64,000 nt of DNA, from NCBI GenBank assembly GCA_963855995.1, contig OY979722.1:4278001-4342000 (forward strand). Reading direction: 5' to 3'. Positions 5,763-63,996 of this stretch are shown one piece after another. The number at the start of each line of letters is the position of its first letter. The stretch's first letter is position 1. Made by a program: the position numbers and the translations under genes. The notes under the pieces are model-generated. The model ran no database searches. It saw nothing but the letters and a program-made list of their open reading frames with translations, and was not told the DNA's origin. The DNA comes from Muricea muricata (taxonomy: Eukaryota > Cnidaria > Anthozoa > Malacalcyonacea > Plexauridae).

Positions 5763-7910
5763 ATGGCTACTTTTGGCGTTGGACGAAGAGCGCTAACTGT
5801 GCTGAATTCGCGTCTTATTTCTCCTGTTTTAGCTTGTAAATCCACTCTTTGTAGACGAATACACACCTCATGGTTGCTTAGTACAGGTAATACACATAAA
5901 AGTGTCTGCTCAAACCTGTATATAATTTGGTGTATAACTTTTTTATGATTATTAGCGCGTGTGTACTTGTTTGGGGACCTGTTTGTCTTCAAGTACCTTT
6001 GACAAAACATTACTAGGATTGCAATATTGCATGGGGAAAGGGCTTTATTCATTTATAAATACACGGACAGGAATGTATAAATTACTGTGAAATATATCTA
6101 CATAAAAATGTTCCTGAAAGCAAAACCAAAATTATGATAATGTACAATATTATATAAATCATTATCTTGGAATTTTGGAAATTTACACAATGTCCTTGGT
6201 CGAAAGTTTGTCAGCTGCGCCAAAGATCTCTCGCGTGGCATAGAGTCATTTCTGTATATTTTGACGCAGGAGAATCACAATCTCTGGTGCAGGAAATGCA
6301 AACTTTCCACCATGGCACAATGTACAATTCACGAAGAAATAGAGGTCGGACTGTGACTATTTTGCTTGGAGTGGGAGGTGTTCCTCTATCTTACTGATCA
6401 TATCAATTCTGTTGATAAACTTACTTGCATTTTCCAGTAAATTTACCTACAGGTCATGGAGTTTGCAAAATCAGAAATTGTATGGTGACACCCCCACATA
6501 CATATGCTTGTTATACCCCAGCCAAAAAATCATCTCTTGTCAGAAGTTGTACACTTGAGAAAAAACACATCACCAAAAAAGTGGATGTTTCTGTTTTTCG
6601 CATTTGATTTTTTTGTCTTGTAATTATTCCTATTAAGTAATCAAAATAATTCACCTTAAAGTCTTTAATAGCAGATTAGTTTATGTAAAAAATGCACTGT
6701 CTCATATTTTTTAATTTGCCTTAGGCTGTGACATGTAAATTCGTTTTGTACAATAAAGTTGCACAATTATTTCTCTCCATCATGTTATAGTAAAGGCATG
6801 CCCTGGTCTGCTTATTACTGGTCATTGATGCAAGAATGCAAATCAGGAAGTCAAAAAAGATTTCGACCACATTTAGCTATCTTAAACAAGCATATGCTTT
6901 CACAGAGTCAGCCAGCAATATGATTACACTGACATGACTCAAATACTTTGAATAGAAAGAAAATTCACGAAAGAACATGAATGGATTTTGATGTCAAATG
7001 ATGTTGGAACTGTAGGGATCTCTGATCATGCACAAGTTAGTGCTTTATGTTAGATCTATGTTGTATTGAAAAAAATGATGGGGTTCATCTTAGCTGAGAC
7101 TACGAATGATAACAATATTATAACCGCATGATTGTGTTTTGTACTTTTTAGAATCTCTTGGGAGATATTGTATATGTTGAATTACCAGAAGTTGGAAACA
7201 GTGTTGAACAACATGGTAAACATAATATTTTATGTCTAATGGTTCAATGTGCTTTAATTTAAGTGGAAACCACACAATGATATTCAAATTGGGAACAGTT
7301 GAGGAAAGTTTATCATCAACTATTGGTCCTCCCATGCTGATCCCATGCATCATCAACTATAGGTCCTCCCATGCTGATCCCATGCATCATCAACTATAGG
7401 TCCTCCCATGCTGGTTCACTTACCCTGCTGAAACACAGGAGACTGACTGTATAATCCTTTAAGAATTTCCATAGGATTTTTTCCATGGGATGTGAATTCA
7501 TTCAAATTTTTTAACATGTTGCAAACTAAAATTTCTCTCTACTTCCAGACATATTTGGTGTTGTTGAAAGTGTAAAGGCAGCAAGTGACTTGTATTCACC
7601 TGCTACTGGTGAAATAGTTGAAGTGAATGAGAAATTAACTGAATCCCCAAATTTAGTCAATGAAGACCCATATGAGGAAGGTAGTGTGGAACCTTTTTAC
7701 ACATTCTTGCTGAAACAGTTTCTGATCAACTCAATAGCTAGTTTAGTATGCATGATCAATGAAACAAATCATGCAAAGTACATTAAGTGTATTTACCTTA
7801 TTTCTAAAGGTTGGATTGCAAAGATTAAGCTATCAAATATGTCTGAACTTGATGACCTTATGGATGAAGCTGCATATGATGACTTTGTCAGGAAAAGTGA
7901 AGACGAATGA
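5763..7910 (+). CDS. GCSH: Glycine cleavage system H protein, mitochondrial
   Basis: Lipoyl carrier that shuttles the aminomethyl group between the P, T and L proteins of the mitochondrial glycine cleavage complex. Five exons, 5763-5886, 6956-7035, 7152-7215, 7549-7680 and 7810-7910, join in phase to 166 residues, close to the human precursor (173). Exon 1 encodes an Arg-rich, acid-free N terminus starting [17 protein letters not shown], a typical mitochondrial presequence. Exon 2 gives KFTKEHEWI and [10 protein letters not shown], exon 3 [13 protein letters not shown], exon 4 the lipoylation site ESVKAAS (Lys is the lipoyl acceptor) and [14 protein letters not shown], and exon 5 [17 protein letters not shown] before the stop. 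The exon 2 acceptor (AATAG at 6951-6955) has a weak pyrimidine tract. Its polyadenylation signal is not certain; AATAAA occurs near 8246. Confidence 0.95.
7315..7412. repeat. 37-bp direct tandem repeat, about 2.7 copies
   Basis: Units containing TAGGTCCTCCCATGCTGATC start at 7321, 7358 and 7395, an exact 37-bp period, in GCSH intron 3. They look like a recent slippage or minisatellite; no function is implied. Confidence 0.85.
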
Positions 7911-9042
7911 TGTGTTTGGCAACTTGCACACACAAGAATGATTGTATAAAATTTACTTCAACTTCTTTGAACTGTGTCTGAAAACATCACAAAACCCTGA
8001 ACAAAACTATATAATATAATATATAACAGCATGATAGCAAAAATTAACTAAATGTTTTGTTATATATTTGGCACCATAACATATTTTTTTCTGAATGTTG
8101 TCACCTATAAACATGCACACTTTCTTCTGGTATTAAATTGCTAAAAGTAAACTTTTTTAATTCAGTCTCTGACCAAACATTAATGTTCAGCTTTAGCGTG
8201 ATATTGATGACCAGGGGGATTAAACCGTTGGTAACTTGCTGTGATGAATAAATTCATCTGACATTAGATATAATAGAGCAAGGTGTATTGCTGCCCAATG
8301 GGTAAAATAGCACATCATATTCTACATTATAGCTGGGCACGTATAACAACACATCTTGTATGTTTGGAAGGTTGTGCTACTAAAAATTTATAATAGGTCA
8401 ATTAGCACTGCTTTGGCCTTGTCAAATGGATAAACATACATGACTCTGTGTGGACTGTTGGATACTTTATTTTTACCTACAATACTATACTGTTGTTTAC
8501 TGAATAATTAAGGTTACTTAATTTCTTTACCATAAGTTTACATTATTATTTACATTAACTTAATGCCATCTGAAGTGTTTGATGTTTCCTGCAAATTCTC
8601 TCATCACAAGTGAATACCACATTTACCATACAAAACGCTAGGACTGCTTCACACAGTTAATTTCATCCACTCTAAAACTTCAAGAGGTCTTGACTTAGCT
8701 TTAGAGCTTCATAAACTATTTCTGTACAATAACATGTAATAACATCTGTAATGATGCGAATAGCAAGTTTACACTGACTTCTCATATATTATATTGCCCC
8801 ATATTTCTCGACTACAAAATACACCTTTTCATAAATGGTGATGTCATTTGGAAATCACACAGACTTCAAAAAACTTGGAGAGGGATTACAGTCCTTGATG
8901 TAAACAAATGATCTGTTTACATTTAGAACTGCTATATTTGTAAAATATGATTTACGAACTGAATATCTGAAAAAATACAAATTAATTCAAATACAACATT
9001 CACAATTTCATAAATGACATCACAATGAGGAAAAACAATGGT
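7911..9042. other. Convergent 3' region of GCSH and msrA
   Basis: Contains the two 3' untranslated regions pointing at each other and the msrA SECIS element (8651-8727). Apart from that structure and AATAAA-type signals it is AT-rich, with no ORF of interest. Confidence 0.5.
8651..8727 (-). promoter_or_regulatory. SECIS element in the msrA 3' UTR
   Basis: On the minus strand: quartet strand ATGA (8712-8709), one A, an 11-bp helix GCTCTAAAGCT (8707-8697) pairing with AGTTTTAGAGT (8679-8669, two G-U pairs), an apical loop opening with the conserved AA (8696-8695), then the opposing GGAT (8668-8665). This gives the non-Watson-Crick U-U, G-A, A-G pairs of the SECIS core. Helix I continues with TAGTTT (8718-8713) against AAATTA (8663-8658), and after a small internal loop with ACAG (8725-8722) against CTGT (8656-8653). 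The 12-nt spacing from ATGA to AA is canonical. It starts about 330 nt after the msrA stop codon and would direct selenocysteine insertion at the in-frame TGA. Confidence 0.88.
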
Positions 9043-10988
9043 TTAAAAAAGCATTTTGCATACAGCATTAGCTACACCTGGAGCCAGATTCAGTGTCTTA
9101 ACCTCAGCATCAAACTGTTTCTTGGAGCCATTTTGTCCAAGGTATCCATTCAGGCGTGCTGCAATTGTTGAGTCCTTTAATTCTTCGTTATTCAACTGTA
9201 GCGAAGCCAAGATGTTCCCATGTGCACGTAACCTGTACTTCTGATGATAGCTAAACAAATGCACATATTAGAGGGCATTTTTCGTTAAGTGCCAATGAAA
9301 TTATAAATGAGTAAAATAGTAACAAAGGCTTACTCTTCAGCATCATAGAATGTGTTGGCTGGTAGAATATCTGTTGCGATAGTTTTCTTTGATCTGCTGT
9401 ACTCAGCCTTAGCACTCTCTTCAGCTAATCTTTTCTGCTCATCATTGTGATAGAATATTGCTGACTTATACTGAGCTGATCGTTTTTGTGTATAGTTGTG
9501 CCCTTCCCAGAATACTTTCAAGATATTACTGAAGTTGGTCACTTTTGGATCATATTCCACCTGTAGTGTCTCAGTATGGTCACCCCTGGAAAGAAGTGTT
9601 AACCATGTTACTAACATATAAAGTTCATTATGTGCTGAATTGTCCATATCCTTGATCATTACCTATGGTATCTCTATTTAGACAAGCAAAATGAAAGTAA
9701 TAAAGAGCAAATTTCAGTTTAGGGAAAGTCAACAAATGGATTTTTTCTACATTGTGGATTTGTCCCACAATTGCTTCACTCCACCCCCCCCCCCCCCCCC
9801 CCACTCTATCTGTGACTAGTTTAATGGGTTTTCAAAGTAAAGAATAAAGTTATGATTTTACAGTCACTATTGGACCTAAGATGCGAAAATTGACCTCGCT
9901 TGAACAAAAAATGTCAAATTCCTGTAGCCTCCCCCCCCTTCCCCCAACCGTACCTTGCAGCTTCACAGATTGACAGGTGGCTACACAACACTCTATCTTT
10001 GCCAAGTAATGAAAAAGGATTCTAAAATTGCTCAACACTAGGGCAGAATGGCTCAATCAAACATATTAAACGTCGACAGCCTTTTACAATTTGCATTAGA
10101 TTTAAGCATTAAATTGTGATTTTATCTTTTATACTGCAATAAATCACAGAAATAATAAGTATTCATTATTCCTCCATGCCAAACTTAGTCAAAACAAAAT
10201 AGCTAAAACCATGATAGGCAGCAATTAGAATCAATCTGTGACTCTGCTTGCTGCACTCTATTATATATTTCAACTATGCAACTACATAGAAAGAGAGCTG
10301 TATACTGTTTATAAAGAGAACTTTATACTCTTTATACAGAGTTTTATATTTTTAGAGTCTTTCGTTATTATATAATAAAACATAAAAATTTCTTTCACTT
10401 TATATAAATCATGCGAGTTGGTATTAATTGGTATAAGTGGGGTTAAACTTAAACCGCTGTGTTTTCTTCCATTTACTAAGCGAAACTCCTCGACAAAACA
10501 TTTTTTTAAATTAAAAGTTAAGTTTTAAATTGAAGACATATTAATTACCAATTACAAAGCAACTGGAAGTTATAATATATGTGGACTACAGGCAGTGATA
10601 TATGATTACCTAACATGACGCAATCGAGAACTGAAATTTTCCCAAGTACTAGTCTATAGAAAATTAATGCTAAATTGATATTTTAACATACTTACAAGCT
10701 CCTATACGTCGGGTTCTTCTTGTGCCCGCCAGTATAGCCAACTCGGGTTTTCACGATCCCCGGGACGCAGCCAAACTGCGACTCGGGGAACCAAAATCAT
10801 CCCATGGCAAAAGTGGCCGTTTCTGTCATCTTCGAAACCTCGTTCGAGCTCATGGCCTTTCTCACCGATGCTGCTGCTGAGCTTTTACCAAATGTTCGGG
10901 CAAGAAATGTCAACACCGACGACATGAACGGCAAGAGAACAACACAACCAAGTACGACCGATACGGCGCTTAAAAATCCCAGTTTCAT
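9043..10988 (-). CDS. msrA: Peptide methionine sulfoxide reductase MsrA, selenocysteine form
   Basis: Reduces methionine-S-sulfoxide in proteins and free Met-SO. Three exons, 10988-10696, 9585-9334 and 9250-9043, join in phase to 250 residues if TGA at 10799-10797 is read as Sec. The catalytic motif is then TFAMG-Sec-FWFPESQFG in place of the usual GCFW; downstream frame stays open and fully MsrA-like (VGYTGGHKKNPTYRSLGDHTE across the first junction, then YDPKVT, KVFWEGH, QYKSAIFYH, TFYDAEDYHQKY). The ATG at 10988 gives a hydrophobic N-terminal segment, KLGFLSAVSVVLGCVVLLP, so secretion or membrane anchoring is likely. A Cys four residues from the C terminus (NAVCKMLF) could be a resolving cysteine. 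Sec-type MsrA is known from Chlamydomonas and some bacteria and is reported from some invertebrates. A SECIS lies in the 3' UTR. An ordinary gene finder would truncate the protein at TGA. Confidence 0.93.
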
Positions 10989-35129: not shown

Positions 35130-36200
35130 TCACAATATTTGATAAACAAAGAACCAAGCATTGTCGTCCTTTAGGTAAACCGGTTCGTATTGCTTTGCAA
35201 TGAATTTCCACTTTCCCTCTTCGCTGAGTTGATCCATTTTTTCATGATACCCACCTTTAAAGGTATCAATTGCTTGTCCTCTGACACCAAACGTCACCAA
35301 ACCACCTGACTTAACGACATGCACAAGATCATCTAAGCCCTCACTTGGAACATGATTAAGTGTCAGGACACCCACACAAATGGCTGCATCATACTGGTTT
35401 GCAGCTACGCCTAAATCTTTGCACCCTGGGGATGCCATTAAACCCTCCCTTAGGGAACCATATATGCCTTTTTCTTTGGCCATTTGCAACAAATCTGGAG
35501 ATAAATCTACTCCGTCGATATTTTTGTAACCACGCTTGTGGAGCTGTTCACCGACGAATCCAGTCCCACAACCGAGATCTATAATACGAGCTTCTTTTGT
35601 GAATCCAAATTCAACCAGTTTTTGTGTCAGCAATTCTGCTGCTACAATGGGTCCAGAGTATGCATTGTCAAGCATGCCCTAAAGACACAACCGTATTCAC
35701 ACAAATACCCTAAGAACAACCAGTCTACTGTGCAATGTCCATATTTCATACTGTGTTCAAAGCTTGCATATGACATCCTTAGCTACTGTATATTTGTATT
35801 TGGAGCTGTGTTTGTTTTATAGGATACTGTAATGATCATTATTTTGTTAGTCAGATACTAACATACCTAAATTTGGAGACAACCCAGATACCAAATACCC
35901 AAAATATTAAACATACACCGGTTACAGGATATTGCAAACCAAATAATCGTAATCATGATCTAGATATGGTATACCTCAAATAAAGTACCCAGGATATCGG
36001 AATACCCAAAACCCTTTGGCAGGGTGTGATAAATCGGATCTCACAGGGGGCATATCAGTTCAGTTCGAAAACGTAAACCCTACCTTGTCATAGGTTTTGG
36101 CCCAAATATGATATGCATCTTTTATTTCTTCTTGAGTAGTTCCTTCTTTTTTCATAAGCACATCCATGTAAGCATAACCATCAAAATCTTCTGCAGCCAT
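35130..36200 (-). CDS. METTL27: METTL27 (WBSCR27)-like methyltransferase, copy 1
   Basis: Class I SAM-dependent methyltransferase of the Williams-Beuren WBSCR27/METTL27 group; the substrate is not known. Two exons, 36200-36084 and 35678-35130, phase 0, 221 residues. Exon 1 gives MAAEDFDGYAYMDVL and HIWAKTYDK, exon 2 the Rossmann fold: motif I IIDLGCGTGFVGEQL, motif II NIDGVDLSPDLLQMAKEKG, then YDAAICVGVLTLNHVP and VKSGGLVTFGVRG. It ends DDNAWFFVYQIL. Adjacent to and about 65-70% identical with the next gene, same strand and intron position, so the two are a tandem duplication. Confidence 0.9.
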
Positions 36201-37097: not shown

Positions 37098-39076
<1,979 letters not shown>

Positions 39077-57092: not shown

Positions 57093-60751
<3,659 letters not shown>

Positions 60752-61724
60752 CTTTAACACTAAAAACTTACTTTGGATATTAAAATCTACCTGCAAAACA
60801 AAAGTACTTGGCTACGCCTCGAAAACTTTCACAAAGTGAAAAACTGTTAAAATTGTCCACGCCACTTCGACGTTTGTATACGTCATCAAACGAGGCACTG
60901 ATTGGTTAATGAGACAAAAAAAGGTAAAAATTGACCAATCAGAGACCTTTTTCTGATGAAACAGTTGGAAACAAGTTTATCCGGTTTTAAAACTAAAGAG
61001 GAGCAGGCTAAAACTAAAACTGATTTCTTAAAAATTGCTTAAAAAAATAACTGAACCATGATTGAACTCATTTGAATACTTTAATTGTAATAATCGTCGC
61101 TAAAGTGACTTTTTCTCACTTAATTTCATTAGATTAAAGCTGTCAAAAAGTTGCAATTGAACCAAAATTTTCGGTTGAAATCCCCCCACCAAGTAGCAAC
61201 CCTAGGGGCATGAACACCCCTAATTCCGTGTTTCAAAGTATTGTAATGAACGTTTGGTGCACAAAACTATACATTTTTGGTCTTATTATTTATACACTTA
61301 AATTGGAGAATTGACATCTCTATGCAATTTCTCAAAAATACCTGGCACCTTTATTTCACTTTTACCCCCCCCCCCCCTCACCTACTGAAAGCCTCCCTTA
61401 CATAAAGCTTGTCAGTAGCAAAGCCAGCCCCACAATTTGGTCATGCTATGCAAATTTAAACATTATTCATTTCTTTAGAAATTGATCCTTTTACAGTCTA
61501 AAAACACAGAAAAATTTGCATTTGCATGATTGGCTAAATGTCAGGCTGGCTTTGCTATTGAAGTTTGTATTTTCTCAAAGCAGTCATGAGCAAAGTGAGA
61601 CAATCGTGTCGCAATTTTGTAATTTATTTATGATACGCTGCATATCTACCTAATAGTTTTCAATTAACACAACAGACAATTTTAGCAAATCTATCAACGT
61701 CGTTTTAGAAACGAAGTCTTTAAA
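60752..61724. other. Intergenic region between the two beta-tubulin genes
   Basis: Promoter of gene 1 and 3' end of gene 2. Contains an inverted repeat (AGTAGCAAAGCCAGCC at 61411 against GGCTGGCTTTGCTATT at 61542, with ATGCAAAT-type octamers inside) and a C-run near 61365. GACCAATCAGAG at 60933 and GATTGGTTAATGAG at 60899 contain inverted CCAAT-type boxes. No gene. Confidence 0.45.

Positions 61725-63996
<2,272 letters not shown>

Follow-up and report, generated by a model that had tools for sequence, protein, structure and literature searches.

The window, i.e., the whole 64-kb stretch of octocoral DNA that was analysed, carries on its minus strand a gene of the MsrA family with three exons and 250 codons, in which the sole internal stop is a TGA at codon 64 (Table 1). 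In the context TETATFAMG-U-FWFPESQFG this codon stands in frame at the position of the catalytic cysteine of MsrA, as had been claimed in an earlier note on this DNA, and the frame continues, again as claimed, through two GT-AG introns to a TAA stop. In-frame stops lie upstream of the start ATG. The product matches two Pfam domains above their cut-offs (23.7 bits in both cases), namely PMSR (PF01625; 144.9 bits) and MsrA_helical (PF20939; 46.9 bits), the latter being, in Pfam's own description, the helical domain of selenoprotein MsrA. Residues flanking and completing the active site are conserved across 121 aligned rows (query included), with F65 in 113 rows, W66 in 114 and a gap there in 7, and with E103, H127 and Y137 in 121 of 121. 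A glycine cleavage H-protein match (PF01597) lies on the plus strand at window positions 7530-7907, convergent with the MsrA gene.

Table 1. Features of the MsrA locus, in positions of the window
Feature	Position	Strand	Basis or remark
MsrA exon 1	10988-10696	-	ATG 10988-10986, hydrophobic leader, active site; gene model
Intron 1	10695-9586	-	GT-AG, 1110 nt; donor GTAAGT at 10695
MsrA exon 2	9585-9334	-	gene model and genome profile search
Intron 2	9333-9251	-	GT-AG, 83 nt
MsrA exon 3, coding part	9250-9043	-	PF20939 helical domain; TAA stop 9045-9043
In-frame TGA, selenocysteine 64	10799-10797	-	catalytic Cys position of MsrA
Possible second start codon, Met46	10853-10851	-	would skip the hydrophobic leader
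SECIS-like element, form 2	8712-8665	-	fold, pattern scan, shuffles; without Rfam RF00031 match
AATAAA polyadenylation signal candidate	8471-8466	-	

At a distance of 330 nt behind the stop codon, the predicted transcript folds into a SECIS-like element. It starts with AUGA-A and an 11-bp helix; an AAG bulge and a 5-bp apical hairpin come next, and the closing helix leads to GGAU, with 12 nt from UGA to AA and an additional 6-bp helix beneath the quartet. This layout is the form-2 SECIS plan. The quartet, the 11-bp helix, the apical AA, their spacing and the distance from the stop had all been proposed beforehand, and each was found again. As the AATAAA candidate lies beyond the element, the latter is situated in a plausible 3' UTR. 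The span 8651..10988 proposed in the earlier note holds up insofar as the gene and the SECIS element are inside it, but its lower limit falls just past the end of the element and the transcript, judging by the position of the AATAAA, is probably longer, ending at around position 8450.

The minimum free energy of the 101-nt SECIS stretch is -26.5 kcal/mol (z -3.35) and a 68-nt stretch gave a z of -4.02, with 0 of 200 shuffles equalling either value. The strict pattern, which required a helix of at least 10 bp with no mismatch and at most 3 GU pairs, was scanned on both strands of the window and returned 1 strict site, the element itself, along with 5 loose sites; loose sites averaged 1.7 to 1.9 per shuffle, and 200 kb taken from elsewhere in the genome, also scanned on both strands, contained 5 loose and 0 strict sites. 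A first set of shuffles of the window contained the strict pattern in 1 of 100, and 1000 dinucleotide shuffles of 128 kb strand each contained 58 strict sites, i.e., 4.5e-4 per kb-strand. At this rate, some 5e-4 strict sites would fall by chance within 1 kb behind the stop, an estimate that is somewhat optimistic given that the limits of the pattern were chosen with the candidate in view. The Rfam SECIS_1 model (RF00031) did not match the element, neither at its gathering score nor at E-values up to 10 on the 101 bases.

The genome, searched for Sec genes as a 453-Mb assembly of 74 contigs, bears the marks of one that decodes UGA as selenocysteine. The earlier note had raised the possibility of a genome without Sec machinery; what the search found were two tRNA-Sec genes with anticodon TCA (contigs C4 and C6), SepSecS on contig C5, where six exons match over a span of about 5 kb, and a selD/SPS2 gene on contig C8 (L128) with a TGA in FTKLKG-U-GCKVP. 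There are also nine matches to GPx in the genome, and four of these loci have a TGA at the catalytic site (NVATF-U-GLT, NVASF-U-GLT, NVASQ-U-GFT and NTASL-U-GTT), with a fur­ther locus, L117, having Cys (TGT) at that site. The TGA positions in SPS2 and in the GPx loci are presumably the usual Sec positions of these proteins.

One of the GPx loci (L122, contig C2) has a strict SECIS downstream, from L122 position 2721 onward on the plus strand, with the same AUGA...AA...GGAU geometry as the MsrA element. It is matched by RF00031 as well (37.4 bits, gathering score 35) and as such serves as a positive control, i.e., the scan detects a SECIS that is recognised independently. The fold of this GPx stretch is weaker than that of the MsrA element (z -2.21, 6 of 200 shuffles as good), and a MAFFT alignment of the two elements paired unrelated parts. 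The strict scan and RF00031 found no SECIS in the flanks of about 1.5 kb around the TGA-bearing loci L119, L123, L125 (GPx) and L128 (SPS2), where the elements may lie beyond, and Rfam at the gathering score gave no match at L117, L118, L120 and L121, the GPx loci lacking TGA at the site. As a separate observation, contig C1 has large arrays of tRNA-like matches that fall short of the tRNA-Sec cut-off, at 57.95-58.24 Mb and 68.86-68.93 Mb, spaced for the most part at intervals close to 4.3 kb and 2.3 kb; one array copy is a tRNA-Ser(GCT) with a tRNA-Thr(TGT) adjoining.

Of the 7998 candidates scored in a homologue search, 7732 passed, and the comparisons below use the best 120 of these 7732. 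The nearest among them is an MsrA-like protein of Dendronephthya gigantea (P0001), an octocoral, with 83% identity over 184 residues. It has the same helical C-terminus and differs in that the record is partial; its 184 residues start at FPESQFG, directly behind U-F-W, so neither the Sec nor the N-terminus is displayed. A predicted structure of this partial protein had a mean pLDDT of 38. Partial records from Acanthaster (starfish) and Lytechinus (sea urchin) start at WFPEAQFG and FWFPEAQFG, respectively, i.e., no more than two residues past the Sec site, and a start just after the Sec codon is a likely reason why these three public records are short. Furthermore, the active site is absent or distorted in public MsrA records of a starfish, a sea urchin, a mite, a glass sponge and a shrimp (P0021, P0047, P0058, P0073 and P0077), as would be expected if automatic annotation had stumbled on a TGA at the active site.

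With the query excluded, 83 of the best 120 of the 7732 homologues have Cys at the Sec site and 27 have Trp; Ser and Val occur there once each, and 8 homologues lack the residue. The Trp is best read as a TGA translated under a code in which TGA means Trp. At the DNA level, the best 80 of at least 569 prokaryotic relatives have TGA in 47 cases, TGT in 10 and TGC in 5, with 18 unread by the motif, counts that lean to Sec forms in that the query alignment comprised 12 sequences of which 9 had Trp at the site. A tree built from all 121 rows joins the query to Dendronephthya (100/100), and this octocoral pair adjoins a set of 48 rows (99/88), in which Trp and Cys rows are mixed and which takes in glass sponge, starfish, sea urchin, crustaceans, mites, spiders, tardigrades, insects and hemichordates. 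Values of 97/76 were obtained for the split between these 50 rows and the other 71. The tree is rooted at its midpoint only and its bootstrap had not settled; as far as the sequences tell, the protein groups with animal MsrAs.

Reading from the DNA a gene with a TGA at its active site, a SECIS-like fold, part of the Sec machinery and further selenoprotein genes that contain a TGA, we consider it highly probable that the locus is an intact nuclear octocoral gene for a selenoprotein MsrA with an MsrA_helical domain, in which UGA 64 would be read as Sec by means of the SECIS and the Sec would be recycled by an outside reductant. The central claim of the earlier note, that this MsrA is a selenoprotein, is in this way borne out by the frame, the SECIS-like fold, the homologues and the presence of Sec machinery in the same genome, and we infer that the gene is transcribed, that Sec is inserted and that the enzyme is active. 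The same codon could have arisen in a decaying pseudogene of a Cys-MsrA through a single base change from a catalytic TGC or TGT, with a hairpin present downstream by chance, and the failure of Rfam to recognise that hairpin would fit such an origin. However, the 250 codons contain no other stop and both introns have kept their GT-AG ends, TGA or Trp recurs at the site in distant relatives, and the Dendronephthya record starts right behind this position, as would be expected if a TGA were present there too. A chance hairpin is in turn opposed by the low number of strict SECIS expected behind the stop. On the intact frame, the pattern among homologues and the control counts we have rejected the pseudogene with its chance hairpin as very improbable.

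Slightly less probable still is that no Sec enzyme is made at all, with the TGA being avoided by alternative splicing or RNA editing or acting as a true stop that would leave a product of 63 residues. Exon 1 is open on either side of the TGA and contains the active-site motif, the frame is conserved downstream of the TGA (at 83% to Dendronephthya), and the gene has a SECIS-like element and the genome Sec machinery, all of which argue against avoidance or termination.

In the mechanism that we propose for the octocoral selenoprotein, the SECIS in the 3' UTR would recruit the animal's Sec machinery, leading to UGA 64 being read as selenocysteine; the selenolate would attack methionine-S-sulfoxide with the release of methionine, and the resulting selenenic acid would be recycled by an outside reductant. 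The chemistry of these reaction steps is that established for MsrA. The proposed recycling route follows from the other cysteines of the product, Cys15, Cys74 and Cys246, none of which stands out as a resolving Cys. Dendronephthya has Arg in place of Cys246 and column 74 is highly variable, which makes an outside reductant more likely than an internal disulfide. Cys74 (in FGC), ten residues on in the same stretch, was considered as a Sec-linked resolving Cys and gave no clear case; Cys occurs at column 74 in 11 of 27 Trp rows, in 13 of 84 Cys rows (the query, entered as Cys, counting in both figures) and in 5 of the 8 rows that lack the site.

The best solved relatives among 30 matched sequences are the MsrA chains 7c13, 4u66 and 4lwj (about 147 bits), which we take to be the selenoprotein MsrA of an anaerobic bacterium. 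These align through the helical C-terminus and have HN at query positions 127-128, as does the query; residue 128 is N in 43 and D in 41 of the 121 aligned rows. They differ in that the match begins at query residue 55, leaving the hydrophobic leader of the octocoral protein without a counterpart, and the SECIS type of that system is presumably not comparable with the octocoral one. No paper was found on the MsrA of Alkaliphilus oremlandii.

Sec-containing MsrA has been in print for marine invertebrates since 2012, so the surprise implied in the earlier note finds no support: PMC3473315 calls it widespread in these animals and reports it from Amphimedon (sponge), Trichoplax (placozoan), Nematostella (sea anemone), Capitella (annelid) and Branchiostoma (amphioxus), with a table of invertebrate selenoproteins in six species giving two MsrA in Nematostella and none in Lottia. 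The octocoral gene is like those of these five species in its MsrA family, its Sec form and its being an animal gene; the table has Nematostella as its only cnidarian and contains no octocoral. According to PMC4244043, Sec-MsrA also occurs in the centipede Strigamia, Daphnia, Ixodes and amphioxus, and its authors argue that Sec-MsrA is ancestral and was later changed to Cys in insects and vertebrates. The arthropod forms are likewise Sec forms in animals, from another phylum, and in the tree the octocoral pair neighbours the other animal rows. Other studies place MsrA among the selenoprotein families of planarians, parasitic flatworms having largely lost these (PMC3828610), and report Sec-MsrA from algae (PMC7539508, PMC2375036). 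The sea squirt selenoproteome of PMC2874816 leaves Msr unmentioned, PMC3965025 names MsrA as a family only, and among the titles of open-licence papers listed by literature searches none was on an octocoral or a secretory Sec-MsrA. The octocoral Sec-MsrA is real, well supported and ordinary for its group, and the present analysis extends the Sec form to an octocoral with evidence for the gene, the SECIS and the machinery in one genome.

A profile search of the genome with PF01625 found this gene alone, two of its exons scoring above the cut-off; with the NCBIfam msrA model the same two exons alone were matched, each of them singly below the cut-off of that model. No other MsrA is apparent in the genome from these searches, which were intron-blind and scored few candidates such that a second MsrA made up of short exons may have escaped them. 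Should this gene indeed be the only MsrA, methionine repair in this octocoral would be tied to selenium.

Residues 3-29 of the product are strongly hydrophobic (best 15-residue mean hydropathy 2.75), with Lys2 before them and basic residues after. The hydrophobic N-terminal segment described in the earlier note is indeed present, but such segments are not rare among these relatives, many of which are bacterial: of those that have 15 or more residues ahead of the domain, 29 of 94 reach a mean hydropathy of 2.0 (30 of 95 with the query); two hemichordate rows have starts that, by eye, resemble signal peptides. On account of this putative leader there may, as the earlier note suggested, be a secretory-pathway form of the enzyme, and a start at Met46 would yield a leaderless one. 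Met1 and Met46 both have G at -3, making two products possible. That the sole MsrA is a selenoenzyme with both a membrane-anchored or ER-directed form (from Met1) and a cytosolic form (from Met46) is a speculative and rather unlikely extension of this reading; if true, all MsrA-type repair of methionine-S-sulfoxide, that in the secretory pathway included, would depend on the selenium supply.

Elsewhere on the minus strand of the window, positions 158-397 contain a heavy-metal-associated domain exon (PF00403), and an open frame with MTCNSC at 2325-2744 looks, by eye, to be part of the same copper-ATPase-like gene. Two similar methyltransferase-like frames lie at 35133-35678 and 37101-37646, the first matching Methyltransf_25 and the second being recognised by eye. 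The region 57495-63656 contains a tubulin GTPase domain at 59307-59843 and similar frames at 62074-63656, which looks like a tandem duplication, the repeat having been seen by eye.
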